Below are positions 14,224 through 26,920 of a DNA stretch of 35,344 nt, piece after piece (the stretch's first letter is position 1; each line of letters opens with the position of its first letter). The stretch lies in contig JANSYC010000039.1 in assembly GCA_024742605.1 (NCBI GenBank), forward strand, positions 1 to 35,344, read 5' to 3'. Under the pieces are notes generated by a model that saw nothing but the letters and a program-made list of their open reading frames with translations, did not search any database and was not told where the DNA came from. The position numbers and the translations under genes were made by a program. This DNA comes from Alphaproteobacteria bacterium. GTDB lineage: Bacteria; Pseudomonadota; Alphaproteobacteria; Thalassobaculales; Thalassobaculaceae.

Positions 14224-14240
14224 AGCCAGATCCGCTCACT
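14211..14240. terminator. Candidate bidirectional terminator between convergent genes
   Basis: Arms 14211-14219 (AGTGAGTGG) and 14232-14240 (CCGCTCACT) pair over nine positions with one G-T wobble and a 12-base loop. The hairpin spans the stop codons of both the AtuA-related gene and the convergent histidine kinase. There is no T-tract on either strand, so efficiency is uncertain. Confidence 0.3.
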
Positions 14241-16779
14241 TCACCCCTTCTCCGACCGGTGATCGCGCGAAGACCAGAGTGAACTTGGACCCCGCGTCGG
14301 GATTGGATCCCACCACCAGCTTTCCGCTCATGCGACGCATCAGGCGGCTTGTGATCGCAAGGCCCAGCCCGGCGCCCTGCCCTTCGGCGACCAGCGCATT
14401 TTCACGCCTCAGGAAGGGTTCGCCGATCCTTTCGATCATATCCGCGCTCATCCCCGGCCCACGGTCCAGAACCGAAATCATCGGGCGCCCGTCCTCCCGC
14501 GTCGCCTCGACCAGGACCGCCGAGCCGGGTGCGGAGAACTTCACCGCGTTGGACAACAGATTCAGGAGACACTGATGGGTCGACCGACGGTCCGCCGCGA
14601 TCACCAGATCGTCATCGATCCGTGCCTCGACCGATACCCCGTAGCGCTCGGCGATGGGATGAATGGTCTTCAGCGCGCGCGCGACCAATTCGGAAGTCGC
14701 CAGACGCTCCGGCGTGAGTTCGACGGAGCTGCTCTCGATCGTCGAGATCTCGAGGATGTCGTTGATCAGGTCGAGAAGCTGGCTTCCGCTGTCATAGATA
14801 TCCGCCGCATAGCCTTCAACCTTGGACTCGCCCAGAGATTTAACACCGAAAGTCTTCAGCATTTCGGAGAACCCGATAATGGCGTTCAGCGGCGTGCGCA
14901 ACTCGTGGGACATGTTCATCAAGAACTGGAGCTTGGCGTTGTTCGCCTCTTCCGCCTGCTGAAGCTTTTCCTGAAGCTCCTCCGACAAGGTCGAGAGTTG
15001 CTCGTTCGCCAACATGATTTCAGTCATGTCGTGGGCGCTGACGGCGACCGAAATCTTCCCGCCGACCTCAAACCGCGCCAGCGAGACCATGGCCGGAAAC
15101 GTCGAGCCGTCGCGGCGCAAAGCCTGAACGATCCGCGAACTGGAGGACATCGGCCCGGCTTTTGACGCGGCGTCCGCGATATACTTGTCCATGAGACCGG
15201 CGTGCCGGCCCCTGACGAACTGCGGCACCAGAACATCGATCGGGGCGCCGACAAGATCCTCCTTGGTCCATCCGAACAGATTTTCCGCCGCCTCGTTCAC
15301 CATTTCCACCCGCTGGTGCTCTGAGACCGTCAGAATCGCATCCGGCACCGCGCGCAACACGGCTTCGAAGTGATCGCGGAGAGTCGCGAACGCGTTCTGG
15401 TCTTCGATCTCTCGTGTCACGTCGGTTTGGATACCGACATAGTGGGTCAAACCCGCGTCCGCATCGAAGATCGGTGCAATGCGGAGCTGATTCCAAAACC
15501 GGGTACCGTCCTTCCGCCGATTGCGCAGGGTCACCGAACAGGCCGTACCCTGTTCAAGCGTCTCTCTTATGACAGCCAGTTCCTCCTGGTCGCGCTCATC
15601 GATATTGAGAAAGCGACAGTTTCTGCCGACGACCTCGTCATACGCATAGCCCGTCATTTCCAGGAAGCCCCGGTTGGCATAGACCAGCGTGTGATCGGGC
15701 CCCGCGGTGGTCACCAGGACCCCGTTCGTCGCCGACTCCAGGGCCGCACTTTTCAGCGTCAGATCCAGGTCGAGCTCCACGTCGCGGGTAACGTCGATGC
15801 TGACGCCAAGAACAGTAACGCCTTCAGGACGACCCCGATTCGGCACAAACTCCGCAATAAAGCGAATGTACCTCCTATGCCCAGAGGGGGTGCGAACGGT
15901 GAGGGTCCGATCCCAGCGCGAGCGGGTCGACTTGGCGGTCTCGAAATCGGCAAGAATCGTACCCCGCGCACCGTCGACGAGCATCCCATCGAACTCCAAC
16001 ATCGTCTTCGGCGCACCGTCGGTGCCGAATATGTCGCGCTGAACGGGATCCCAGATGAACCGATCGGTATCCAGGTCGTATTCCCAGATGCCGATCCCTG
16101 CAGCGCTGCGGGCCAGGCGCGACTGCTCGGTGATCTTACGGTAGAATTCTCCCTCATCCGCGATCCGGAACATGTTCTCCAGGATCAGTCCGAGAACAAG
16201 AACCCCGATCAGGTTGCTTGAAAGCAGAATCCAGCCGAAGGACGACAGAATCGCTAGTCCTGTGGACACATCGACACTTAAGAAGAATGACGGAATCACC
16301 GTGACCGTCGAGAAAACCGCCAACGCCACGAAGCCTAGGACACCGTAGGCCTCACGGTGGAGAGCCCCCATGATCCAAACCGCCATCAATCCGGACACCC
16401 AATAGAGATAGAGGCTGACGACGCCCCCCAGGACAACCGGCCCGCCGACTTCGTAGCGGGCGATGGCTCCGAGGGTGGCCGCGATCAGGCCGGCAAGAGG
16501 CCCACCGAAAACCGTCGCCATCACCACCGGCGCCGAACGGGTATCAAAGGTCGCCCCGTATGGCGTTACGATCGGCAGTTCCACCACGACGACCGAAAGC
16601 GCGCCGAGCACCAACCCGAACATCGCCTGATTTCTCAAGCCGTTCCTTTTTTTTCTGGGGCCGTGCCACTTTTTGAACTGGTCCGGCGCGAGCCGGAATT
16701 GAGATGCCATCAGGAAAACGAGCGTGGCACCGCCGCACAGCACGAGCAGATTATTCAGGAGCGAGAACCCCAAATTCAT
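14236..16779 (-). CDS. Membrane LOV/PAS sensor histidine kinase
   Basis: 847 residues. About six hydrophobic segments (residues 5-200) include FGGPLAGLIAATLGAIAR, typical of the 5TMR-LYT sensor. Then come a PAS fold (about 220-335), a LOV domain (about 345-458), a third PAS (about 466-590), a short coiled coil, HisKA (His625 in MNMSHELRTP) and HATPase (Asn744, DRGPGM at 772, GAGLGLA at 802). The LOV call rests on GRNCRFL with Cys388, the flavin-adduct cysteine, plus Arg389, Asn420, Asn430 in FWN and Gln451 in GIQTDVT. The usual Gln after FL is Asn392. LOV domains sense blue light through FMN. It has no receiver domain and no response regulator gene adjacent. Its ATG overlaps the diguanylate cyclase stop (ATGA). 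Confidence 0.93.
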   Translation of the reverse strand: MNLGFSLLNNLLVLCGGATLVFLMASQFRLAPDQFKKWHGPRKKRNGLRNQAMFGLVLGALSVVVVELPIVTPYGATFDTRSAPVVMATVFGGPLAGLIAATLGAIARYEVGGPVVLGGVVSLYLYWVSGLMAVWIMGALHREAYGVLGFVALAVFSTVTVIPSFFLSVDVSTGLAILSSFGWILLSSNLIGVLVLGLILENMFRIADEGEFYRKITEQSRLARSAAGIGIWEYDLDTDRFIWDPVQRDIFGTDGAPKTMLEFDGMLVDGARGTILADFETAKSTRSRWDRTLTVRTPSGHRRYIRFIAEFVPNRGRPEGVTVLGVSIDVTRDVELDLDLTLKSAALESATNGVLVTTAGPDHTLVYANRGFLEMTGYAYDEVVGRNCRFLNIDERDQEELAVIRETLEQGTACSVTLRNRRKDGTRFWNQLRIAPIFDADAGLTHYVGIQTDVTREIEDQNAFATLRDHFEAVLRAVPDAILTVSEHQRVEMVNEAAENLFGWTKEDLVGAPIDVLVPQFVRGRHAGLMDKYIADAASKAGPMSSSSRIVQALRRDGSTFPAMVSLARFEVGGKISVAVSAHDMTEIMLANEQLSTLSEELQEKLQQAEEANNAKLQFLMNMSHELRTPLNAIIGFSEMLKTFGVKSLGESKVEGYAADIYDSGSQLLDLINDILEISTIESSSVELTPERLATSELVARALKTIHPIAERYGVSVEARIDDDLVIAADRRSTHQCLLNLLSNAVKFSAPGSAVLVEATREDGRPMISVLDRGPGMSADMIERIGEPFLRRENALVAEGQGAGLGLAITSRLMRRMSGKLVVGSNPDAGSKFTLVFARSPVGEGVK

Positions 16780-17909
16780 ACGGGCTGGCCCGCCTGAGCA
16801 CGAAGTCCGAGTGCAGGTTCAAGCGGAACCAGATCATCGACGATCGAACAGTTCCGTCCCGATCGTTTGGCGTCGTAGAGGGCTTGGTCCGCGCGGCGCA
16901 GCAGCTCGCCGACCGACAGTTCCCGACCAAAGGAGGATGTCAGCCCAGCACTGACCGTCACTAGCAGATCGACGCCGGTCGAAATTGGAATCGGCGTCTC
17001 CGAAAATGTCGTTCTCAACCGCTCCACGATGCTGAGCGCGTTCTCGCAGGAGGTTTCCGGCAACAACAGGATGAACTCCTCTCCGCCGAAACGGCCCAGA
17101 ATATCCGTATCGCGGATCTGGTTGTGACACAGATCTGCAAACCGGCGGATAACCTCGTCTCCGACCGAATAGCCGTGGCATTCGTTTACGGCTGACAGGC
17201 GATCTAGATCGAGAATCGCAAAACTCAATGGGTTTCCGTATCTCGCGGTTCGGCGCAACTCCGCCAGCGCCCTGGCTTCCCAGGTGGCCCGCGTGAACGC
17301 GCCGGTCAGGGAGTCGAGATCTCCGACCGTGCGCGACTCAAGCTCGTTCACGATTACCTTCGCGAAATCCGACAGGATCTTCACCTGCCGTTCCGTGAAA
17401 CTCCGCGGCTTGGTGTCGACCACACAGAGACTGCCGACGGCATACCCCTCGGGGGTCATCAGCGGAATGCCAAGATAACTCCGTATTCCCGGCTCTCCCG
17501 TGACCAAGGGGCTGTCCGAGAACAATGGATCCCGGAGTGCGTCGGGCACCAGGAACGGGGCCGGCCGTTCAACGGTATGAGTACAGAACGAGATCTCCCG
17601 GGGCGTCTCCGAGACCGAAAGTCCACGCTGTGCCTTGAACCACTGGCGCTCACGGTCGACCAGAGAGACCGCGCAGATCGGAACGTCCAAAATCTGCTGC
17701 ACCAAATTCATGATGGTCTCGAACGCATCCTCCTCCTGCGTATCGAGAACTTCATACCGCTCAAGGGCACGCGCCCGGCCTTCCTCGTCATCGCCCTTGA
17801 AGGTTTGCACCATCAAACGCTCCGACTGGTGTCTGCCGACCATTAACCGACCGCTGTCGTCACGGACAACGGTTCTAGATGTTTGTTCGTTCGCGGGGGG
17901 GTTGATCAT
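16776..17909 (-). CDS. GAF-domain diguanylate cyclase (GGDEF)
   Basis: 377 residues: an N-terminal GAF domain (about 45-190, starting ERYEVLDTQEEDAF) and a C-terminal GGDEF domain (about 195-355). The active loop is GGEEF (275-279), so c-di-GMP synthesis from two GTP is expected. An allosteric I-site RDTD (266-269) sits exactly five residues upstream, implying product inhibition. The substrate helix reads DLDRLSAVNE where the consensus is DLDxFKxxND, so Phe, Lys and the last Asp are changed; activity may be reduced. The start at 17909 is weakly supported (GAGAGA upstream); Met23 or Met33 would still keep the GAF domain. It is the first gene of an operon with the LOV kinase. Confidence 0.9.
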   Translation of the reverse strand: MINPPANEQTSRTVVRDDSGRLMVGRHQSERLMVQTFKGDDEEGRARALERYEVLDTQEEDAFETIMNLVQQILDVPICAVSLVDRERQWFKAQRGLSVSETPREISFCTHTVERPAPFLVPDALRDPLFSDSPLVTGEPGIRSYLGIPLMTPEGYAVGSLCVVDTKPRSFTERQVKILSDFAKVIVNELESRTVGDLDSLTGAFTRATWEARALAELRRTARYGNPLSFAILDLDRLSAVNECHGYSVGDEVIRRFADLCHNQIRDTDILGRFGGEEFILLLPETSCENALSIVERLRTTFSETPIPISTGVDLLVTVSAGLTSSFGRELSVGELLRRADQALYDAKRSGRNCSIVDDLVPLEPALGLRAQAGQPV

Positions 17910-18239
17910 CTCTCACTCTTACCGACTGCTTAAACAGCGAAGTGAGTATCAAGCGAACGTATTAAGGATTTCTTACGACGCGGACGCGAAGGATTTCGTC
18001 TCCTTCATCGACTCTTTCCTCACTTCGACAGATGTCAATGGAAAGGCATTTTTCTACTGGAAAGGGTCTTAACTCCGACGGATCGGCGGATTTCGAGCCC
18101 TTGCGGACATTTTCAGCACCGCCCTGCCCGGGCCCGAACCTAAGGCGCTGAGCTTGACCGTCCTCCAGCGCATTGAGTCAGGATTATTTATACGGGGCGC
18201 CGAGAGCGTGACCCCTGTTCCGCACGCCCGATTCGCGGT
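17910..18239. other. 330-base intergenic region upstream of the diguanylate cyclase
   Basis: I see no gene here. It must hold the promoter of the leftward diguanylate cyclase-LOV kinase operon, but I find no convincing -35/-10 pair: a good TTGACA on the minus strand near 18035 lacks a -10 at the right distance. An inverted repeat GCGCTG/CAGCGC (18145-18150 and 18166-18171, 15-base loop) could be the 3' hairpin of the 131-residue gene that ends at 18240. An AT-rich patch lies at 18181-18193. Confidence 0.5.
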
Positions 18240-18635
18240 CTACGCCCGCCGGCCGCCCACCGCGCGTTCAGCCTGGTTGGACGCCGCAATTCGGGACGCC
18301 AGAGGTGCTGGCGCAATTGTGGAGGACAGCAGATTTGAACCCGAACCGGCGGAATACGAGGCTTCCGGCACGGGGTCCGAACTCCGTTGCTCCCAATAGC
18401 CGCTCATGACATTAACCAAGGTGAGCTGGCTTTCGGCGAACCGGAGGTGGCCCCGCTGACGCGACAGCGCCGAACTCAGTTCGTCCCGGGCGATCGGATC
18501 CTTCGCCAAGTCAGGGTCAGTCTCACCGAGAGCCGCGAGCTGAGAGACGGCATCCTCGGCCGTGTCCCTTTGGGCCGTATAAATGCGACGCAAGGTAGAC
18601 CAGAGCTTCTGATTGGTTTCCGGAATAGTTGCCAT
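18240..18635 (-). CDS. Hypothetical helical protein, 131 residues
   Basis: I do not recognise this family. The first 85 residues are strongly helical and charged (KLWSTLRRIYTAQRDTAEDA, then LSRQRGHLRFAESQLTLVNVMSGYW), without membrane segments or cysteines. The last 45 are Ser/Ala-rich and look disordered. The start has GGAGAG five bases upstream, and the opposite strand frame is compositionally poor, which supports this as the real gene. The gene is isolated, with AT-richer flanks on its 5' side. Confidence 0.6.
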   Translation of the reverse strand: MATIPETNQKLWSTLRRIYTAQRDTAEDAVSQLAALGETDPDLAKDPIARDELSSALSRQRGHLRFAESQLTLVNVMSGYWEQRSSDPVPEASYSAGSGSNLLSSTIAPAPLASRIAASNQAERAVGGRRA

Positions 18636-18835
18636 CGGTTCTCTCCATTTGAAGTCCTGACTCTACGGAGGAGAACGGTCGATTCACAAGCGACAATTAT
18701 TGACAATTTGCATCTGTTGGAACGCAAATAAATTTTTGGCTACGATCTGAAAAGGAAGGCGAATATGCATTACCGCTTCCCACCCAAAAACCGGAAGGCC
18801 CAATATCAGCTGGTGCATAAAAGGCTATTTAGGGC

Positions 18836-19150
18836 TTAGCCAGACCCAAGCTTCGCGGACTTGGCTCGGATGTCTTTGAGTCTGGGATCCGGGCTCAGCT
18901 CGTCGATCGGATCGCTGTAGTCACCGAAATCCCTGTAAAGTTCTGCATTTTCGATGGCCGTATCGCGAACCTTTTTGCACTCGCGGGGATTCAGCATGCG
19001 GAATGCGCGATCGGCCTGGCTCACATCGGTGCTTTCAAGCGTAGACGCGGCGCGCGTGATTGCCGCATGAACGAACCCGGTTCCAACGGTCCGGTCCACG
19101 GCGTCAGCCAGAATGCCCAGCGCAACCTTTTCGATGCTCATCTCACTCAT
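18836..19150 (-). CDS. Hypothetical protein, 104 residues
   Basis: Unknown family. The protein is a small, mostly helical soluble one: MSEMSIEKVALGILADAVDRT, then a helix with ADRAFRMLNPRECKKVRDTA, and an acidic tail containing DYSDPIDELSPDP. The frame extends to 19192, but ATG 19150 has GGAGGC/GGAAAG just upstream and a more natural N-terminus. Flanks on both sides are AT-rich compared with the rest of the window. No neighbour suggests a job. Confidence 0.6.
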   Translation of the reverse strand: MSEMSIEKVALGILADAVDRTVGTGFVHAAITRAASTLESTDVSQADRAFRMLNPRECKKVRDTAIENAELYRDFGDYSDPIDELSPDPRLKDIRAKSAKLGSG

Positions 19151-19313
19151 CTTTCCGCCTCCAGCCCCCTCAAGGACCAGACAACCATCCAAGTCTAAGA
19201 ATCCCAGGTTTTACCCAACAAATCAATAGACAGATCTTTTAGATTCAATTCATTCATTTCCAAAGATCTGATTTCGCTTTAAAAATGAAAGGTTAGAGGG
19301 AACCGTTCGAATC

Positions 19314-19343
19314 TTGTGCCGCGACGTCGATTCCGAGTAGCGT
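19314..19343 (+). promoter_or_regulatory. Candidate promoter for the membrane-anchored hypothetical gene
   Basis: TTGTGC (19314-19319) and TAGCGT (19338-19343) are 18 bp apart, 40 bases upstream of the ATG at 19383. The -10 hexamer is identical to the one proposed upstream of the TPR gene. The match to consensus is modest. Confidence 0.28.
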
Positions 19344-19382
19344 TTCCGGATCGACACACCGGCTGAGGGAGCCCTGCGAATC

Positions 19383-19820
19383 ATGTCGGTCCAGACCCTT
19401 CTCGTGCTCGGCATATTCGGCCTGTTGATTTGGCTCGCGGTTCGGATGACCCGGAGCACGCTGCGGCATCTTTCGGAGCAGGAAGCCCTGATCGATCAGG
19501 GCGGCATCGGGCGCCTGGTAGTGGAGATGAATCCAGGAACCGGCGCCGTCGACGTGGTCAGCGACCATCTGGCCGACATGCGCGCGAGTTGGCATCCAAT
19601 TCGGTTTCCGGAATCCTGGGAATCCCGTTCGGCAGGGTTTCCGCCCGAGAAGGTCGAGTTCGACGGCAGGCTCAGCGGGCGGCGCAAATGGTGTGAGGCC
19701 CACTGCAAGGGCCGCTGGCGGGTGGAGGCCCCAGCCAGCCTCGCACCCGTGTTCTGGTTCGAACGGCGCGACGATGCCGATGGCTTTTCGCTCGCCTGGT
19801 TCCCGTTCAAATGCCTTTAG
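19383..19820 (+). CDS. Hypothetical membrane-anchored protein, 145 residues
   Basis: Residues 5-20 (TLLVLGIFGLLIWLAV) form a single N-terminal membrane anchor, followed by a basic cytoplasmic-type stretch and a soluble domain rich in Trp and Arg, with WCEAHC (two cysteines) and a final WFERRDDADGFSLAWFPF. I do not recognise the family. GAGGGAG lies 11 bases before the ATG. The last 14 bases overlap the end of the convergent gene on the other strand. The alternative minus-strand frame 19293-19703 has no ribosome site and less natural composition. Confidence 0.55.
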   Translation: MSVQTLLVLGIFGLLIWLAVRMTRSTLRHLSEQEALIDQGGIGRLVVEMNPGTGAVDVVSDHLADMRASWHPIRFPESWESRSAGFPPEKVEFDGRLSGRRKWCEAHCKGRWRVEAPASLAPVFWFERRDDADGFSLAWFPFKCL

Positions 19821-20370
19821 GGGCCGGACGGCTCTTCAGATTTTCCAGAGCGACCAGAACATCCGCGCCGTAGGCTCCTCGTGCCGGGACGGCGGTGGCG
19901 ACGAGGTCCTGCCGTTCAATCAGCGTTTCGAACGCCTCCCGCTGCACGACCGGGCGTCCGGTTCGTATCAGATCCTCACAAATCTGCTCGATCCAAGCGA
20001 TCCGTTCCGGGTCCAGATCCGGGAGAGCGTCGATCTTCGGCGCGTCGATCAGAACATGCCGCGCCCGCCGCCGCTCCCCCTCGCCAAGCATCTCGAACGC
20101 CATCAACCTGGACCGGGTCGGACGGAACGCGGCCAGCCCCTCTCCCGCATCCGGGCGGCGCCAGGCTCCGAGCAGACGGTCACCGTCCCGGACGACGCCC
20201 TCGGCCCCCGTGCGATTTCGCTGCGAAACGGGGGCCGTCACATCCGCCATGAACGACGCCGGACCGGGACGACGGGAGGCCTTAGGCGTAGTGCGTGTCC
20301 CTCCCGCCCGCGGATCGATCCCGAGCAAGGACGCGGCCAAACTGTCATCCGCCTTGCCGGACGCCTTCAT
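19807..20370 (-). CDS. Hypothetical third gene of the ParA-RHH operon
   Basis: 187 residues, unknown family. The N-terminal 45 residues are basic and Pro/Ala/Gly-rich, probably disordered. The rest has predicted helices (RSRLMAFEMLGEGERRRARH; ERIAWIEQICEDLI; REAFETLIERQDLVATAV). No catalytic motif is visible. Its ATG overlaps the stop of the ribbon-helix-helix gene (ATGA at 20367-20370), so it is translationally coupled and likely acts with ParA and the RHH protein, for example as a cargo adaptor. That role is inference. Confidence 0.75.
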   Translation of the reverse strand: MKASGKADDSLAASLLGIDPRAGGTRTTPKASRRPGPASFMADVTAPVSQRNRTGAEGVVRDGDRLLGAWRRPDAGEGLAAFRPTRSRLMAFEMLGEGERRRARHVLIDAPKIDALPDLDPERIAWIEQICEDLIRTGRPVVQREAFETLIERQDLVATAVPARGAYGADVLVALENLKSRPAPKGI

Positions 20371-20681
20371 TTGGGATTGGCCTCCCGGGCCAGCCAGGCA
20401 GCAAGGGCTCGGGTCAACAGACCGTTCGCGCTCGTACCCTCCCGCTCCGCCCCAAGCCTGAGCGCTGCATGATCCTCGACACTGAGCCGGAAGGTGAAAC
20501 GCTTTCGGTCCACCACGGGGTCCCTGCGCGGCGATGGCGATCTGGTGGCGGCCGGAGTAAGATTGGCAGCAGGCTGCAAGCGCAGCACCGGCACGGGTCT
20601 CGACCGGCGCGGGGGCTCAGAGGGGCGCGCCTCCCAGCCCTGCGACGGGCTCGCCTGACCTTTCATGACGAACAATCCCAT
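20367..20681 (-). CDS. Ribbon-helix-helix DNA-binding protein (ParG/CopG-like)
   Basis: 104 residues. The C-terminal part (about 59-100) fits a ribbon-helix-helix fold: strand RKRFTFRL, helix SVEDHAALRLGAERE, turn GTSANG, helix LLTRALAAWLARE. The first 55 residues are basic and Pro/Ser-rich, probably a flexible tail. ParG-type centromere-binding proteins have just this layout, a mobile N-terminal tail that acts on the ParF ATPase plus an RHH dimer that binds DNA. It lies 18 bases after parA, as expected for such a pair, with GGAAGG upstream of the ATG. A plain CopG-type repressor is the alternative. Confidence 0.82.
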   Translation of the reverse strand: MGLFVMKGQASPSQGWEARPSEPPRRSRPVPVLRLQPAANLTPAATRSPSPRRDPVVDRKRFTFRLSVEDHAALRLGAEREGTSANGLLTRALAAWLAREANPK

Positions 20682-20699
20682 GGTCCATTCCTTCCCGGA

Positions 20700-21383
20700 T
20701 CACGCGGCGCCGATCAAGGGCGCCGGGCGGGCACGCAGGTCGGGCGCCAAGCGGGTAGGACGCCGCCCTTCGAGGCGATCCGACAGATAGGTCCAGAGCC
20801 GTCGGACCTCGTCTGCCGACCGCCCGGACGCGTCGACTTCCATGACGGTCCGACCGTCGATCATGCTCGCCGCGAAATCGGTGCGCTGATGAATGGTGAC
20901 AGGTGCCACCGTGCCATGCTGAGACAGCACAATCGCTGCTTCACCGGTTATGCGCGCGCGGGGTGTGGCACCGTTGACCACGAAGACCAGCGGCTTTCCC
21001 AACCGTTCGACGATCTCGATCGTAGCGCCTGCGGCTCTCAGATCGTGCGGGCTGGGCCGTGTCGGAATGGCCACGAGGTCGGAGGTCGCGACAACCCGTT
21101 CGATCGTTTCGGTGATGGCGGGCGGCGTATCGATCACCAGCAACTTGATGCCCTGACCGCGCATCTGTGCCACATCCTGCTCAATGCGAGACACATAGGT
21201 GTGGGCGAATACCGGCACTTCGCTGATCCGTTCGTTCCACCAATCCGACAAGCTGCCCTGCGGGTCGGCGTCGAGAATCGCAACCGGTCCGGCGCCGGCG
21301 CGTTCGGCCGCCACCGCCACATGTCCGGCAAGGGTGGTCTTTCCGCTACCGCCCTTTTGCGAAGTAAAGGTCAGTATCTGCAT
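20700..21383 (-). CDS. ParA-family partition ATPase (ParF-like, no HTH)
   Basis: 227 residues. The deviant Walker A is KGGSGKTT (Lys10 signature, Lys15), switch LDADPQG (Asp40) and Walker B LLVIDTPP (Asp85). It begins directly with the ATPase fold and has no N-terminal HTH, the small 'type Ib' form. Such ATPases move DNA or protein cargo over the nucleoid. The frame extends to 21419, but ATG 21383 has GGAGGAG just upstream. The downstream partner is an RHH protein rather than ParB. The chromosome's own parAB would normally sit near gidAB, so this looks like an additional, plasmid-type or cargo-positioning system. No replication gene is nearby. Confidence 0.93.
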   Translation of the reverse strand: MQILTFTSQKGGSGKTTLAGHVAVAAERAGAGPVAILDADPQGSLSDWWNERISEVPVFAHTYVSRIEQDVAQMRGQGIKLLVIDTPPAITETIERVVATSDLVAIPTRPSPHDLRAAGATIEIVERLGKPLVFVVNGATPRARITGEAAIVLSQHGTVAPVTIHQRTDFAASMIDGRTVMEVDASGRSADEVRRLWTYLSDRLEGRRPTRLAPDLRARPAPLIGAA

Positions 21384-21502
21384 AATTCTCCTCCCGCTCA
21401 ACCAATCACCACGAATCAAACGCCAATTCTCTTAATAACTATTGTGCGTTACTGAAATACCGATCCGGTTATCTGTCAATATATAAATACAGTTATTCTT
21501 TG

Positions 21503-21531
21503 ATCCTAAAATATCATAGTTTTTCAATCAA
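21503..21531 (-). promoter_or_regulatory. Candidate promoter for the parA operon
   Basis: On the minus strand, TTGATT (21531-21526) and TAGGAT (21508-21503) are 17 bp apart. The start would be near 21497, giving a leader of about 115 AT-rich bases before parA at 21383. The region 21420-21540 is markedly AT-rich for this genome. The palindrome pair lies just upstream of this promoter. Confidence 0.42.
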
Positions 21532-21573
21532 ATGCCGATCTTCGGAAACTGCCTATCAAACAAAGGAAAAAGC

Positions 21574-21617
21574 CGCACCTGGTGCGCCTTACCGCTTGAA
21601 AAGCGCACCAGGTGCGC
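21574..21617. repeat. Two copies of a 13-15 bp palindrome (operator or centromere-like)
   Basis: Copy 1 is CGCACC-T-GGTGCG at 21574-21586 and copy 2 is GCGCACC-A-GGTGCGC at 21603-21617. Each is a perfect palindrome around one central base, and the copies are inverted relative to each other, identical over the 13-base core. Centres are 30 bp apart, roughly three helix turns. Together they can also form a 14-bp stem (21574-21587 with 21603-21616) with a 15-base loop. They lie between divergent parA and TPR genes. A repressor operator, a partition site for the RHH protein, or an RNA hairpin are all possible. Confidence 0.65.
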
Positions 21618-21624
21618 GTAGCGT
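21596..21624 (+). promoter_or_regulatory. Candidate promoter of the TPR gene with an operator in its spacer
   Basis: TTGAAA (21596-21601) and TAGCGT (21619-21624) are separated by 17 bp, 21602-21618. The second palindrome (21603-21617) fills that spacer almost exactly. A dimeric regulator bound there would block RNA polymerase or, like MerR, remodel the spacer. The -10 is a weak match, so the promoter itself is tentative. Confidence 0.38.
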
Positions 21625-21666
21625 GACACTTCAATGACACTCCCTAGAAACCGAAGCGAGTCTCAG

Positions 21667-22206
21667 ATGAAGCTTATGTCCCATCCAATTTCGCGCGGAC
21701 CCCGGTATTTCGGGCTTCTGGCGGCGACACTGTTCGCGCTGGCGCTGTCCGAGCCCCGGACTGTCTCCGCAGCATCAGTGCCTGGGAGTCAGTCATCCGG
21801 TTCTGGGAACTCAACCTCGGTCCAGCGGCATCCGGACCCGGTCGCCGCCAGCGTGGACGACGCGATCGCCCACTACAGCGATGGAAATTTTGAGATGGCG
21901 GAACGGCTGCTGACAACCCTCGCGGCGACCGAGTCCTTGCCACGCTCCGTCAGGACCCTGGTCCTGTTCAATCGTGGCGCGGCCCGCCTGCAGTTGAACC
22001 GCTTCGAGGCAGCGATCACGGATTTCGAGGACGCGGCGCGCCTGGACTTCCCGAAGCCGGCGCAGTTGTTCCTGGCGAAAGGGGTGGCGTGGGAATACCT
22101 CGACCGGCCGGATATGGCGGCGGAAGCCTTTGTGGACGCGCTCTCCGCCGACCCAAATGATCCGGTGGTCCAGGCAAAAATCAGAGACTTCTTCAACAAG
22201 CCGTAA
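21667..22206 (+). CDS. Exported TPR-repeat protein
   Basis: 179 residues. A signal peptide (about 1-34) ends in SEPRTVSAAS; a Ser/Gly-rich linker follows, then three TPR-like units: AIAHYSDGNFEMAERLLTTL, VLFNRGAARLQLNRFEAAIT and LAKGVAWEYLDRPDMAAEAF. TPR proteins of this kind act as periplasmic scaffolds; no specific partner is evident. The frame is open from 21634; I chose ATG 21667, with 21676 (MSHPISRG) also possible. It is divergent from parA across a region with strong palindromes, and ends 46 bases from the convergent nuclease-like gene. Confidence 0.82.
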   Translation: MKLMSHPISRGPRYFGLLAATLFALALSEPRTVSAASVPGSQSSGSGNSTSVQRHPDPVAASVDDAIAHYSDGNFEMAERLLTTLAATESLPRSVRTLVLFNRGAARLQLNRFEAAITDFEDAARLDFPKPAQLFLAKGVAWEYLDRPDMAAEAFVDALSADPNDPVVQAKIRDFFNKP

Positions 22207-22252
22207 GCCCGGCTCTACCAGAGGGCCAGGACTTCGTCACTTGCGTGCCGGC

Positions 22253-22795
22253 CTAATTCGGCGCGTTCTCGGACCGCCAAAGTTCGGGGTCCTGGAAGAT
22301 GAACTCCCAAATTCCGGTCTTGTCCCGTTTCGCAAGGGACTCCAGTTGTGCGTAATCGGGGCGCTGCGCCGGACGTGCGACCGCCCAGCCGGTCCGGACC
22401 ATGCGGCTGTTGATGTTCATATCCCCGACATAGCAGACCGCCAGAACGCGATTCTGGTCATCCACCCCTTCCGGCACACAGGAGATGGTGTTGGGGCCGA
22501 CCATCCGCTTGAGCTCGTCCAGGGCCATCACGCCACAGCGGTAAGGACGCCCGTACTCATTCTCGCAGTACTGATCCATTTCGGGAGCATCCAAACCGAA
22601 CAGGTGGACCTCGGTCTTGCCGATCCGCAACTGGTCACCGGACAGGACCCGCGGCCGGCCCTGAATGTTGCCATCCGCGAACGCCGGCCCCGCCGTCAGC
22701 AGGAACAAGCTGAGGAAGAGCAATGCCGAACAGACGGTTCGGAAGGTCGAATCGGCTCTTGGATCTCCCTTTTGTGGTCCGCCTTGGAAATCCAT
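22253..22795 (-). CDS. Exported thermonuclease-fold (SNase) protein with a changed active site
   Basis: 180 residues: a signal peptide (about 18-41, ending GPAFADG) and a staphylococcal-nuclease domain. Compared with S. aureus nuclease, the motif RLLLVDTPE reads HLFGLDAPE here, so Arg35 is His while Asp40 and Glu43 remain; Arg87 is kept in NRVLAV. The calcium loop DGDT reads SGDQ, keeping Asp21 but losing Asp19. Four extra cysteines (YCENEYGRPYRC and two later) suggest disulfides in the periplasm. Nuclease activity may be weak or lost. The start has GAGGAGGCGG upstream. Confidence 0.85.
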   Translation of the reverse strand: MDFQGGPQKGDPRADSTFRTVCSALLFLSLFLLTAGPAFADGNIQGRPRVLSGDQLRIGKTEVHLFGLDAPEMDQYCENEYGRPYRCGVMALDELKRMVGPNTISCVPEGVDDQNRVLAVCYVGDMNINSRMVRTGWAVARPAQRPDYAQLESLAKRDKTGIWEFIFQDPELWRSENAPN

Positions 22796-22942
22796 TCGGG
22801 CCGCCTCCTCGTTTCGGTAGCATAGTCTCGGTGGAATTCAACGTTTGTCGCGTCCAGGAATCCGAAACAAGGTTAACACGCGCGATAGACGAGAGCACGG
22901 GGCGATATCCCGACCGGGGCAAATAAACATGTGAAGGACGGC

Positions 22943-23773
22943 TCAGAGGATCTCCAGCGGCTGCTTCCGGCGCGGCGGAGAAAAGGCACCATCCAGATCC
23001 GCCAGATCCTGCTCGGTGAGACGCAGATCGAGGGCGGCGCGGTTCTCACGGACATGGGACGGATTGGAGGCCTTCGGAATTGCGATCACCCCCTCGCGCC
23101 GCAGCACCCAGGCCAGGGCCACCTGCATCGGCGAAACATGATGCCGGGCGGCAATTCTCGCCAACGTCCGGTCCCCGGAGAGCCGGCCCTGTTCCAGGGG
23201 GGAGTAGGCCATCACCGGCATACGGCGCTCGGCGCACCATGGCAACAGATCGAATTCCGGCCCCCGACGGGTGAGATTGTAGAGAATTTGATCGGTCGCA
23301 CAGGCAGCTCCTCCGGCGGCGACCAAATCCTCCATCTCGTCGGTGTCAAAATTGCTGACGCCCCAGTGCCGGATCTTGCCCGCCTGCCGAAGCTCTTCGA
23401 AGGCCGCGATCGTATCCTTGAGCGGGTGGGGGCCGGGCCAGTGCAGCAGATACAGATCGATGGTCTCGGTCCCCATCCGGCTGAGGCTCTCCTCGCATGC
23501 GGTGACGGTTCCTTGGCGGCTGGCATTGTGCGGCAGGACCTTGGAGACCACGAAGGCGTCGTCCCGACGGCCGGTCAGCGCGTCGCCCACCACCCGTTCG
23601 GCGCCGCCGTTCGCGTACATCTCCGCCGTGTCGATCAGGGTCATTCCCAGATCGAGACCGAGCCGCAGCGCGTCCGCTTCCGCCGCATGGTCGGAGCCTC
23701 GGTCGCCCATATACCAGGTCCCGAGCCCAAGGGCCGGAACCGTCTCTCCGTCCGGTAAGGTGACCGTGCGCAT
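22943..23773 (-). CDS. Aldo/keto reductase
   Basis: 276 residues, a (beta/alpha)8-barrel NADPH-dependent carbonyl reductase. The full catalytic tetrad is visible: Asp48 and Tyr53 in [11 protein letters not shown], Lys78 in VVSKVLP, His111 in YLLHWPG. Also present are [13 protein letters not shown] and a C-terminal cofactor region [17 protein letters not shown]. The protein is the short, YeaE/DkgA-like form. It starts five bases after the upstream dehydrogenase stop, with GGAG close by, so the two are co-translated. The substrate is unknown. Confidence 0.92.
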
Positions 23774-23778
23774 CGCCG

Positions 23779-24843
23779 CTACTCCGGAAGGATCGCGCGG
23801 CTGATCGCGAGACCCGCCTCCTGGGTCGACGCGGAGCCCCCAAGGTCGGCGGTCAGCGCGCCGCCGGAGGCGAGCGCCGCATCCACCGCCCGTTCCATCG
23901 CATGGGCCGCCAGGATCGCCGCCTGGTTCTCCTGCCGCTTTCCGATCCAGCCGATCAGCATGGCGGTCGACAGGATCAGCGCCACCGGATTGGCGGTCCC
24001 CCGTCCGGCAATGTCCGGAGCCGACCCATGGCTGGCCTGGGCGATCGCGAACCCGTCGCCCGCGTTCAAGGATCCGGCGACCCCGAGACCGCCCGCCAGT
24101 TCGGCGGCCAGATTGGACAGAATGTCGCCAAACATGTTGGAGGTGACCACAACGTCGAACCGTTCCGGCTCACGCACAAGAAGCGAGGCCATGGCGTCAA
24201 CCAGCACCTCTTCTACCTCGATTCCCGCATAGTCGCGGGCCCCCGACTGCGCCGCGTTCCGGAACAGTCCATCCGTCATCTTCAGCACGTTTGACTTGGT
24301 CACGATGGTCATTTTGTTGCGGCGACCATCGGCAATCGAGGCGCCCGCGCGGCCGATCCGCTCGGAGCCCTGCCGGGTGATCTTGCGCACCGCCAGGGCC
24401 ACGTCGGCCGTCGGCATGAACTCGCCCGAGCCCTGAAACATGGTCCGGTCGGCGTAGAATCCCTCGGTGTTCTCCCGGACGATGACCAGGTCCATCTCCT
24501 TCACCGAAGCCGGCACGTTCGGTCGGGTGCGCGAGGGGCGGATGTTGGCATAAAGATCGAAGCGCTTGCGAAACTCGGCTGACGGGTTCAGCCCGCCCTT
24601 CTCCTTCGGTGGGTAATCGACCGTCGAGACCGGCCCCAAGATCACCCCGTCGACCGCCCCAGCGTCCGCGAAGGTCTCGTCGGTGACCGTCACTCCATGC
24701 TGCTTCAGTGCCTCCAGGCCGACCGGCTGGCGGAACAGCTCGAGGCCAAGACTGTGGCGCTTGTCCAACGCCTCCAGCACGCGCTCGGTCGCATCCGCGA
24801 TTTCGGGGCCGATACCATCACCAGCCAACAGCATGAGTTTCAT
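23779..24843 (-). CDS. Isocitrate/isopropylmalate dehydrogenase family enzyme
   Basis: 354 residues. The family oxidatively decarboxylates beta-hydroxyacids with NAD(P). Signatures seen are [11 protein letters not shown] at the start, [22 protein letters not shown] (residues 122-132), [13 protein letters not shown] with the catalytic Lys, and the metal/cofactor segment [25 protein letters not shown] favours isocitrate, tartrate or homoisocitrate-like substrates over isopropylmalate, but the sequence cannot decide. The frame is open to 24930; ATG 24843 has GGAGAAG at 5-base spacing and the family N-terminus. An aldo/keto reductase follows after five bases. phoX is divergent across 190 bases. 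Confidence 0.9.
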
Positions 24844-24951
24844 GATCTTCTCCAGATGTCGCCCCACACCCTGCTGAACGCGGAATGCTAAGTCTAGGGG
24901 CTGCACGGGCTTTTCAATCGCCGGGTCCATCTTAAAGCCTCCATCATATCA

Positions 24952-24969
24952 CAGTCACGAAGCTGTCGC
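24952..24969 (+). promoter_or_regulatory. Candidate Pho box upstream of phoX
   Basis: CAGTCAC (24952-24958) and CTGTCGC (24963-24969) are separated by GAAG, giving the 11-bp repeat unit of PhoB sites (consensus CTGTCAT-N4-CTGTCAT). Each half matches five of seven positions. It lies 65 bases upstream of a phosphatase gene expected to respond to phosphate starvation. I see no clear -10 at the ideal distance. Confidence 0.42.
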
Positions 24970-25033
24970 GAAAGCCGGCTACTGGTCGTCGGGAGCCAGA
25001 ATAAACCCCGACCGCGAAATACGGAGATCCGTC

Positions 25034-26920
25034 ATGCAGACCCGAGATCATGATTTGTCCTTCGATGCGTGGGATGAGGTGCACTCGCCCCGCGCTGAGC
25101 GCTGCGATTTCGACGCCGTCGTCGATCGCGCCATCTCCCGCCGTGGAATTCTTGGCGGCCTGGCGGCCTTCGGCGCCGTGGCGCTGCTCGGCAGCACGGC
25201 CCTGGCACCCGCCGCCCGCGCCGCGTCCCGTCTGGGGTTCGAGCAGGTCGCCGCCAATAGCCTCGACACCATCACGGTGCCGACCGGGTACTCTTGGCAT
25301 CCGGTCGCGACCTGGGGCGACCCGTTGTGGTCGGCCGCGGCCGAGTTCGATCCGGCAAGCCGCGGGACGGGCGTCAGCCAGGAGGCCGCATTCGGCGACA
25401 ACAATGACGGCATGGCCCTGTTCGTGGACGGCGACAGTCTGGTGCTGGCGGTGAACAACGAATACACCAATCGCCCGATCATCTTCGGCAACCGGGACAG
25501 CAAGCTGCCCGAGACCGCCGACGACGTTCGCAAGGGCAAGGCCGCCCATGGCGTCTCGGTGATGGAGATCGCCGAGACAGACGGCAGGTGGCACGTGGTG
25601 AAGGACTCCGCCTACAACCGCCGCATCACCGCCGACACCCCAATGGAGATCACCGGCCCGGCACGGGGACACGCCCTGCTGAAGACCGCGGCGGACCCGA
25701 CAGGCACCACTTCGCTCGGCACCTGGAACAATTGCGGCAACGGCCGGACCCCCTGGGGCACCTACCTGGCCTGCGAGGAGAACTTCAACGGCTATTTCTC
25801 GTCCAGCGACGCCGACTACAAGCCCAGCGCCGAGCTGTCGCGCTACGGTGTGAAGACCGAAGACTGGGGCTACGCCTGGGCAATGACGGACGAGCGCTTC
25901 GACATTTCCAAGCATCCACAGGAGCCGAACCGCGCCGGCTACGTGGTCGAGATCGATCCGCTGGACCCGCACTCCACGCCGAAGAAACGGACCGCCCTGG
26001 GACGCTTCAAGCACGAGAACGCGGAACTGGTCGTGAACGGCGACGGGACCGTCGCCGTCTACATGGGCGACGACGAGCGGGGCGAGTTCCTCTACAAGTT
26101 CGTCTCCTCCGGCAAGTACGCGGTCGGCGCGGACAATTCCGACCTGCTCGAGGACGGCGACCTGTTCGTCGCCAGGTTCAACGATGATGGAACCGGCGAG
26201 TGGCTCGCCCTGACACCGGAGACCACAGGGATGAGGGACAAGGGCGAGATCTCGGTCCACACTCGCATCGCAGCCTCAGCGGTGGGTGCGACGACCATGG
26301 ACCGTCCGGAATGGGTGGCGGCCAATCCCAAGACATCCGATGTCTACTGCTGTCTGACCAACAACCGGAACCGGGGCGTGAAGCCGAATGCCGGCGGCGA
26401 CCAGACCCCGGTCAACGGCCCGAACCCGCGCGAGAAGAACAACTACGGCCAGATCGTCCGCTGGGCCCCGGTCGACGACGACCACGCCGGACCAAACTTC
26501 ACCTGGGACCTGTTAGTCGTGGCCGGAAATCCAACCGTGCACAGCGATGCCTATGCCGGCTCAAGCAACGTCACGGCCGAGAACATGTTCAATTCGCCGG
26601 ACGGGCTGGCGTTCGACAGCACCGGCCTGGCGTGGATCCAGACCGACGGCAACTACTCGAACGAGGGCGACTTCGCCGGGATGGGCAACAACCAGATGCT
26701 GATCGGCGACCCGGCAACGGGCGAGATCAGACGCTTTCTGGTCGGCCCGAAGGAATGCGAGATCACCGGCATCACCTGGGCGCCGGACCGCCGGACGGTT
26801 TTCGTGGGGGTCCAGCATCCGGGCGAGAAAGGCGGCAGCGCCTTCCCCGGAGGCGGCCAGTCGGTCCCGCGCTCCTGCGTGATCGCGGTCAAACGCGAGG
26901 ATGGTGGACTGATCGGCTGA
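25034..26920 (+). CDS. phoX: PhoX-family alkaline phosphatase, Tat-exported
   Basis: 628 residues. A twin-arginine signal (Ser35-Arg36-Arg37 in SRRGILGGLAAFGAVALLG) ends around ALAPAARA at residue 63. PhoX enzymes are calcium- and iron-containing periplasmic phosphatases that release phosphate from many monoesters. Conserved PhoX regions visible are VNNEYTNRP, GTWNNCGNGRTPWGTYLACEENFNGYF, FKHENAELV with MGDDERGEFLYKF, and PDGLAFDSTG. The long N-terminus before the RR motif is usual for PhoX. A candidate Pho box lies 65 bases upstream. The gene converges on a porin gene that could serve phosphate or ester uptake. Confidence 0.93.
   Translation: MQTRDHDLSFDAWDEVHSPRAERCDFDAVVDRAISRRGILGGLAAFGAVALLGSTALAPAARAASRLGFEQVAANSLDTITVPTGYSWHPVATWGDPLWSAAAEFDPASRGTGVSQEAAFGDNNDGMALFVDGDSLVLAVNNEYTNRPIIFGNRDSKLPETADDVRKGKAAHGVSVMEIAETDGRWHVVKDSAYNRRITADTPMEITGPARGHALLKTAADPTGTTSLGTWNNCGNGRTPWGTYLACEENFNGYFSSSDADYKPSAELSRYGVKTEDWGYAWAMTDERFDISKHPQEPNRAGYVVEIDPLDPHSTPKKRTALGRFKHENAELVVNGDGTVAVYMGDDERGEFLYKFVSSGKYAVGADNSDLLEDGDLFVARFNDDGTGEWLALTPETTGMRDKGEISVHTRIAASAVGATTMDRPEWVAANPKTSDVYCCLTNNRNRGVKPNAGGDQTPVNGPNPREKNNYGQIVRWAPVDDDHAGPNFTWDLLVVAGNPTVHSDAYAGSSNVTAENMFNSPDGLAFDSTGLAWIQTDGNYSNEGDFAGMGNNQMLIGDPATGEIRRFLVGPKECEITGITWAPDRRTVFVGVQHPGEKGGSAFPGGGQSVPRSCVIAVKREDGGLIG

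Follow-up and report, generated by a model that had tools for sequence, protein, structure and literature searches.

The chromosome examined here carries a three-gene operon that, judged by comparison of its protein sequences, is a new arrangement: a ParF/ParG-like chromosomal pair, consisting of parA and a ribbon-helix-helix (RHH) gene, joined to a PAS_5-like third gene, inside a wider alphaproteobacterial family. No earlier description of a ParA-RHH-PAS_5-like module was found in the open-licence PMC literature, and a search of the same literature for the ParA family together with PAS_5 returned nothing related. The window, i.e., the whole stretch of 35,344 nucleotides that was analyzed, is an entire contig of a 4.47-Mb draft genome in 187 contigs. 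A reading made earlier from the letters alone (the sequence-only reading) had proposed a three-gene operon at 19807 to 21383 with its last two genes overlapping, and the open reading frames (ORFs) confirm this on the minus strand: the parA stop lies 18 nt from the RHH start, and the start codon of the third gene lies within the RHH stop, giving a 4-nt overlap. The module and its immediate surroundings are as follows.

20700-21383, minus strand: parA, encoding a ParA/ParF-type Walker ATPase of 227 aa without an N-terminal HTH domain (ORF, family scans, ParF match).
20367-20681, minus strand: RHH gene, encoding P0002, 104 aa, with an N-terminal tail and a C-terminal ribbon-helix-helix (ORF, family scans, family alignment).
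19807-20370, minus strand: third gene, encoding P0003, 187 aa, with the motif ASLLGIDPR at residues 13 to 21 and an apparently eroded PAS_5-like domain in the C-terminal half (ORF, family alignment).
21384-21566, minus strand: AT-rich operon leader, missing in the sister species, with a 14-nt direct repeat at 21414 and 21526.
21569-21617, no strand: two near-identical palindromes GCGCACCWGGTGCG, outside the module; the boundary of the swap described below adjoins them.
19383-19820, plus strand: flanking gene of 145 aa, unknown, kept in the sister species and outside the module (ORF, sister-species comparison); it is convergent with the third gene, and the 3' ends of both overlap.
21634-22206, plus strand: flanking gene for a TPR protein with a signal-peptide-like start, divergent and outside the module (family scan, sister-species comparison).

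On its sequence, the gene at 20700-21383 is beyond doubt a ParA. Family scans gave CbiA at 42.3 bits and VirC1 at 47.8 bits, both over cut-off, and the Walker A motif (KGGSGKTT) starts at residue 10, which leaves no space for an N-terminal HTH domain, in keeping with the small HTH-less ParA that had been proposed. The ParF-ParG layout that the sequence-only reading had recognized also stands, as the only two matches at E ≤ 1e-8 in a PDB sequence search were TP228 ParF (63 bits, E 2.2e-16, the nearest among solved structures) and a ParA entry of the same score. Across 21 ParAs of loci with a PAS_5-like third gene (PAS-type loci), the window included, the Walker A lysines K10 and K15 are invariant, as are D38 and D40. 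The best family for the window ParA and for eight relatives scanned was NF041546 (ParA_partition, NCBIfam), against which the window ParA scored 160 bits. All nine fell under the cut-off of 180, with 158 to 168 bits for the window, six chromosomal ParAs, and one plasmid ParA and 123 bits for a second parA copy, which by sequence score makes the window ParA and these relatives a sister group of the curated family. Such a second, shorter copy (KGAAGKTT) lies directly upstream of parA at L047:4948-5610 and also in L049, L056, and L061, all four being PAS-type loci.

The best chromosomal relatives of the window ParA are 72 to 74% identical to it, and plasmid records hold ParAs that are at most 62% identical, e.g., adjoining trfA or near repC. 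Among the matches listed, chromosomal relatives are closer than plasmid ones, belong to many families, and in some cases have the same third gene. In the class sample, 62 ParA places, the window included, were found in 52 of 385 genomes at E ≤ 1e-50, with a best identity of 74%; among 36 genomes searched from the window's own order, no other one has a ParA better than E 1e-37. From genome_contigs, the best 80 of at least 493 confirmed loci were taken, and these 80 named loci plus the 61 class-sample places other than the window form a set of 141 loci, from which a parA ORF was obtained in 139 (L200 and L209 gave none). All four sampled genomes of one genus (g53) keep the ParA locus, and related operons occur in named Sphingomonas, Novosphingobium, and Pelagibius genomes, the locus of one Pelagibius strain (L048) being of the PAS type. 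In a ParA tree of 87 of 140 rows, from which 53 rows of the sphingomonad type, picked at random, and 4 loci lacking a clear Walker motif were left out, the window pairs with the PAS-bearing L218 (support 80/53) and falls in a group of seven rows (84/88, not starred) with the PAS-bearing L218, L220, L224, L229, and L230 and with L232. Branches in this tree are long, and the PAS label is scattered over several groups.

The second protein, P0002, had been read as an RHH protein with a tail. Taken alone it is weak (PF05534 HicB at 20.3 bits against a cut-off of 21; an Arc-like PHROG at 1.8e-5); the assignment is borne out by its alignment with the RHH proteins encoded behind parA in 127 of 139 related loci. 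That family has an N-terminal motif, ASLTxxLLARKGxAxP, present in strict form in 103 of the 127. P0002 starts with MGLFVMKGQASPS, a shortened form of the motif as in L230 and L232, and its tail contains GLFVMKGQASP, a short form of the family's LLARKGxAxP in which the lysine of KG is invariant (12 of 12 aligned rows). P0002 had no match among the sequences of solved RHH chains, solved ParG included, or in 72,556 plasmid records. The pair of 14-nt direct repeats in the leader (21414 and 21526) could be an operator for the RHH protein or could be due to chance, and a comparison of shared k-mers found no common upstream site for RHH across 68 regions before parA in relatives. The k-mers that those regions do have in common were considered as a conserved operator and rejected, as they match c-di-GMP riboswitches of other clades rather than an RHH site. 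An Rfam scan of the window gave no match near the gathering score, including no c-di-GMP riboswitch.

The third protein had been called the novel part of the operon, which holds in one sense and not in another. As a single sequence, P0003 has no trusted match: none in Pfam (none at E ≤ 1, with the PAS_5 cut-off not reached), NCBIfam, PHROGs, or PADLOC, none confirmed in genome_contigs, none in plasmids, weak matches only in the 36 order genomes, and in the 385 class genomes one weak match (E 6.7e-4), away from that genome's parA. However, P0003 looks like a divergent member of a PAS_5-like third-gene family that lies behind parA-RHH in other Alphaproteobacteria, with its central PAS motif eroded. 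The gene that follows in L044 and others codes for a protein of 195 to 391 aa, and the third proteins share a YWxxLRxGRxxPxRxDIDP...WPN block and a C-terminal WIxxLGRxVxxxGxP...FP...LPL...HVLCH block. When seven third genes were scanned with Pfam PAS_5 (PF07310), two were over the cut-off and four under it, the match covering the start of PAS_5, and for one nothing was found. A separate Pfam scan found nothing in L220. An iterated HMM recovered 21 PAS_5-like ORFs downstream of parA, which reduce to 19 distinct loci once L190 (gene 2.8 kb off) and L219 (which repeats L046) are dropped. The family had no match in the 72,556 plasmid records. The sequence-only reading had made its proposal depend on the third gene recurring beside homologous parA-RHH pairs; it does so in the 19 distinct related loci and, weakly, in L232, but most parA-RHH pairs have another next gene or none recognized. 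Separately, a PAS_5 gene of MopJ size occurs at L190:424-996 (minus strand), 2.8 kb behind the stop of a parA of another branch.

P0003 shares with this family its third position, the N-terminal ASLxxIxIRR motif, and a C-terminal W...G.P...F...LP block. It aligns with the PAS_5-like third proteins in ASLLGIDPR and in WIEQICEDLIRTGRPVVQREAFETL...AVP; the central block aligns poorly, and the central YW..GR..P..WPN motif is mostly lost. The HMM search that had been suggested for the 187-residue protein gave a divided outcome. A first HMM, built from nine third proteins and run under default filters, and the iterated HMM both missed P0003, and hhalign put the probability of a match between the nine-row family and P0003 at 1.6%. 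At full sensitivity, however, P0003 scored 14.0 bits against the family HMM, compared with a maximum of 9.5 in 5000 shuffles, and membership was decided by such full-sensitivity scoring against shuffles. Among 1405 ORFs of 140 to 240 aa, P0003 ranks next after 11 PAS_5 ORFs. L232 likewise has a short RHH and a third gene that starts within the RHH stop, and its third protein scored 18.6 bits (0 of 3000 shuffles); with L232 added to the profile, P0003 reached 16.3 bits (0 of 5000 shuffles). All 21 third proteins, including P0003 and L232, have the ASLxxIxIRR motif, by a pattern written with these in view; of 20000 P0003 shuffles, 102 had it within residues 1 to 60, and of 159 control ORFs, 1 had it within residues 1 to 110. 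The codon-position GC of the third gene is like that of a real gene.

Structure prediction for P0003 alone gave no usable model (AlphaFold, all helical at a mean pLDDT of 41). When a 10-row alignment was supplied, AlphaFold2 gave a mean pLDDT of 59, rising to about 85 over residues 121 to 160, in a model steered by the PAS_5 rows of the alignment. This model has strands at 87-95 and 102-107, a helix at 121-137, and strands at 141-148, 152-162, and 171-182, in a PAS-like order. Foldseek ranked the SrrB PAS domain first (E 5.4e-3; no match reached 1e-3), ahead of LOV, PAS, and CACHE domains as well as some unrelated rows, and the best VIA-align Z was 8.6, near a value that its own note calls common. 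As predicted with that steering, the model agrees with a PAS fold.

The setting of the module is chromosomal, with housekeeping neighbors and syntenic flanks in a congener. The chromosomal surroundings and the lack of a visible replication gene had both been claimed from the letters; family scans confirm fabI, aroC, and tag on the contig and, across the 18 window ORFs put through them, turn up no gene for replication, and there is no tRNA within the window. The G+C of the module, in 500-base steps, reaches 0.69 and is within the range of the surrounding DNA (up to 0.70 in window 15000-26000). In the congener, a sister species whose genome is 87% complete in 950 contigs and covers the module site itself, the DNA flanking the site is syntenic and 81 to 87% identical on both sides, and between the same two flanking genes a 536-aa gene (L251:5769-7379) stands instead of the module. 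It is a fusion of a solute-binding-like part (SBP_bac_3-like, under cut-off) and a Gly_transporter (UPF0126-type) membrane part (over cut-off), and a search of the window's genome found no match to it. The divergent TPR gene at 21634-22206 was considered as a partner of the module and rejected, because it holds its position in the sister species that lacks the module. The palindrome GCGCACCWGGTGCG, present twice at 21569-21617 and also in the sister species, recurs at G000:C113:3920-3933, has few other copies in the window's genome, and could act as a terminator or regulator site.

Neighbor genes of PAS-type loci vary among families, and the operon has no linked cargo gene. From their sequences, we take these neighbors to include malic enzyme, NAD kinase, a sulfatase-like protein, and others. 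Together, the swapped site in the congener and the differing neighbors show that the module travels as a unit, a cassette that is dispensable in at least one species and sits in different chromosomal places across families; it can be gained, lost, or swapped.

Other branches of the ParA family have other attachments. In 63 of the 80 named loci, a TPR/SPOR gene lies behind the RHH gene, at a distance of 0.6 to 2.6 kb from the parA start; its product is a TPR protein that carries a SPOR domain at its C-terminus (e.g., L045:7986-9821), and L045 has both kinds of gene, PAS and then TPR/SPOR. SPOR domains bind septal peptidoglycan. A c-di-GMP-I riboswitch (RF01051 or RF03167, over the gathering score) precedes parA on the same strand in 14 of the 61 loci from the class sample, with counts by batch of 12/20, 1/20, 1/20, and 0/1; it lies 10 to 148 nt upstream of parA in L202, L246, L189, L201, L245, L234, L207, L199, L197, L242, L203, L244, L209, and L241. 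None was found in PAS-type loci or in the 11 named loci scanned. The riboswitch matches suggest that these ParA operons are under c-di-GMP control. A search of open-licence PMC for literature tying a c-di-GMP riboswitch to ParA found no relevant title, and none of the c-di-GMP-I-GGC literature there concerned ParA, going by title or start of abstract.

Among known systems, the closest is type Ib plasmid partition as in TP228 ParF/ParG. Like it, the window has an HTH-less ParA of ParF size, with a deviant Walker A and closest to ParF, followed by an adjoining RHH gene with an N-terminal tail; unlike it, the window module is not carried on a plasmid, given its chromosomal neighbors and syntenic congener flanks, has no rep gene among the 18 ORFs scanned, shows no centromere repeats beyond the one 14-nt pair in the leader, which may be due to chance, and has a third gene. 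From chromosomal ParABS (Soj/Spo0J) it differs in its partner, the window ParA having an RHH protein and not one with a ParB_N domain; the genome's strong ParB_N match lies on another contig (C80), beside its best CbiA match. MopJ of Caulobacter is described as a small, cytoplasmic, polar PAS_5 protein that acts on the cell cycle (PMC4432633). The third genes of the relatives match the start of PAS_5 (PF07310), and P0003 itself has no PAS_5 match. We know of no parA neighbor of MopJ, and its N-terminus lacks the ASLxxIxIRR motif as far as we are aware. Chromosomal ParA/MinD ATPases place many cargos (PMC10241942). McdA and PpfA/ParC are described there as chromosomal ParA-type cargo positioners, as is proposed for the window unit, but they are encoded with their cargo genes, and the window module has no cargo operon nearby and an RHH protein as partner.

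Given the observed gene order, family relations, chromosomal setting, and swap, the reading we tentatively prefer, at somewhat less than even chances, is that of a chromosomal three-gene ParF/ParG-like positioning unit, for which we infer the biochemistry, the cargo, and the signal. ParA-ATP would bind the nucleoid nonspecifically, as is known of ParA and ParF, and would cycle on it. The C-terminal domain of the RHH protein is a putative DNA binder, acting on its own operator and/or a chromosomal site. In ParG, the N-terminal tail binds ParF and stimulates its ATPase, and the RHH domain binds the centromere (PMC7308502); by its position and conservation, the KG-containing N-terminal peptide of the window RHH protein may stimulate ParA in the same manner and drive its release. 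P0003, with its own conserved N-terminal motif, would be a signal-responsive adaptor linking the motor with either a protein cargo or some polar or cell-cycle cue. The module probably places something other than a plasmid, and the suggestion that it positions a protein cargo or a chromosome region is plausible. Against this reading stand the varying neighbors without a linked cargo gene, the low hhalign probability and the default HMM searches that missed P0003, the unusable single-sequence model and the steering of the aligned one, the patchy Pfam calls for PAS_5, and the unstarred tree support, as well as the facts that most relatives work without a PAS gene and that the sister species lacks the module.

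The main rival is a unit for signaling and gene regulation in which nothing is transported, the RHH protein regulating chromosomal genes, ParA governing how active or how clustered that protein is, and the PAS-like protein serving as sensor. Matches of the RHH protein to repressor families, the lack of a nearby cargo operon, and the ties of relatives to signals (a PAS_5 third gene or, in 14 of 61 loci, a c-di-GMP riboswitch) argue for it, but ParA retains all ParF-type motifs and the conserved RHH tail motif is placed where ParG has its ParF-contacting peptide; we regard this alternative as unlikely, if a serious one. An ancient plasmid ancestry is possible. That the module is a plasmid remnant, however, an integrated par locus of parA and a centromere-binding RHH gene with a hitch-hiking third gene, now idle or stabilizing its region, strikes us as distinctly unlikely: plasmid ParAs reach 62% identity, some by trfA or near repC, and the module is missing from the same site in the sister species and, at that likeness, from the rest of the order, yet there is no replication gene in the 18 ORFs scanned and no tRNA, neither the third-gene family nor the RHH protein matches any plasmid record, and the closer ParAs sit on chromosomes across many families and come with the same third gene, one genus keeping the locus in all four sampled genomes. 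Improbable too in our judgment is that P0003 is an unrelated or decaying ORF behind a parA-RHH pair, its PAS likeness being due to chance. The failure of database searches, the weak matches in order and class genomes, and the hhalign probability all point that way; they are opposed by the results on shuffles, ORF rank, motif, gene order, and the ParA tree, by the 4-nt coupling to the RHH gene, as in L232, and by the codon-position GC.

Among the cargos of ParA-type ATPases are plasmids, chromosomes, carboxysomes, and chemoreceptor arrays. If the positioning reading is true, the chromosomal ParA-RHH pair and its PAS-like third subunit would make up a positioning system that carries its own sensor, and the riboswitch-led relatives would tie ParA-type placement to c-di-GMP. 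More speculatively, and with considerable doubt, Alphaproteobacteria may have a chromosomal ParA-RHH positioning module wired to signals clade by clade, through a PAS_5-like sensor or adaptor third gene in the window clade, a c-di-GMP riboswitch before parA in another, and a TPR/SPOR lipoprotein gene behind it in Sphingomonadales, so that PAS-sensed cues, c-di-GMP, or division state would set cargo placement. The cultured, named relatives (Sphingomonas, Novosphingobium, and Pelagibius) make the question testable.

A role as a defense system was rejected, as it would rest on one PADLOC match to mad8 (E 0.0075) that we judge to reflect general ATPase likeness. A ParA-binding peptide common to the RHH and PAS proteins was seen by eye and in weak HMM matches; a PSSM test did not bear it out as a whole, finding it in 5 of 21 (p ≤ 0.05) against 3 of 60 controls, with neither P0003 nor P0002 among the five, so that it is a weak lead at most. 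As a separate observation, a large sensor histidine kinase with PAS/LOV-like domains is encoded near the module, at window 14236-16779 on the minus strand.
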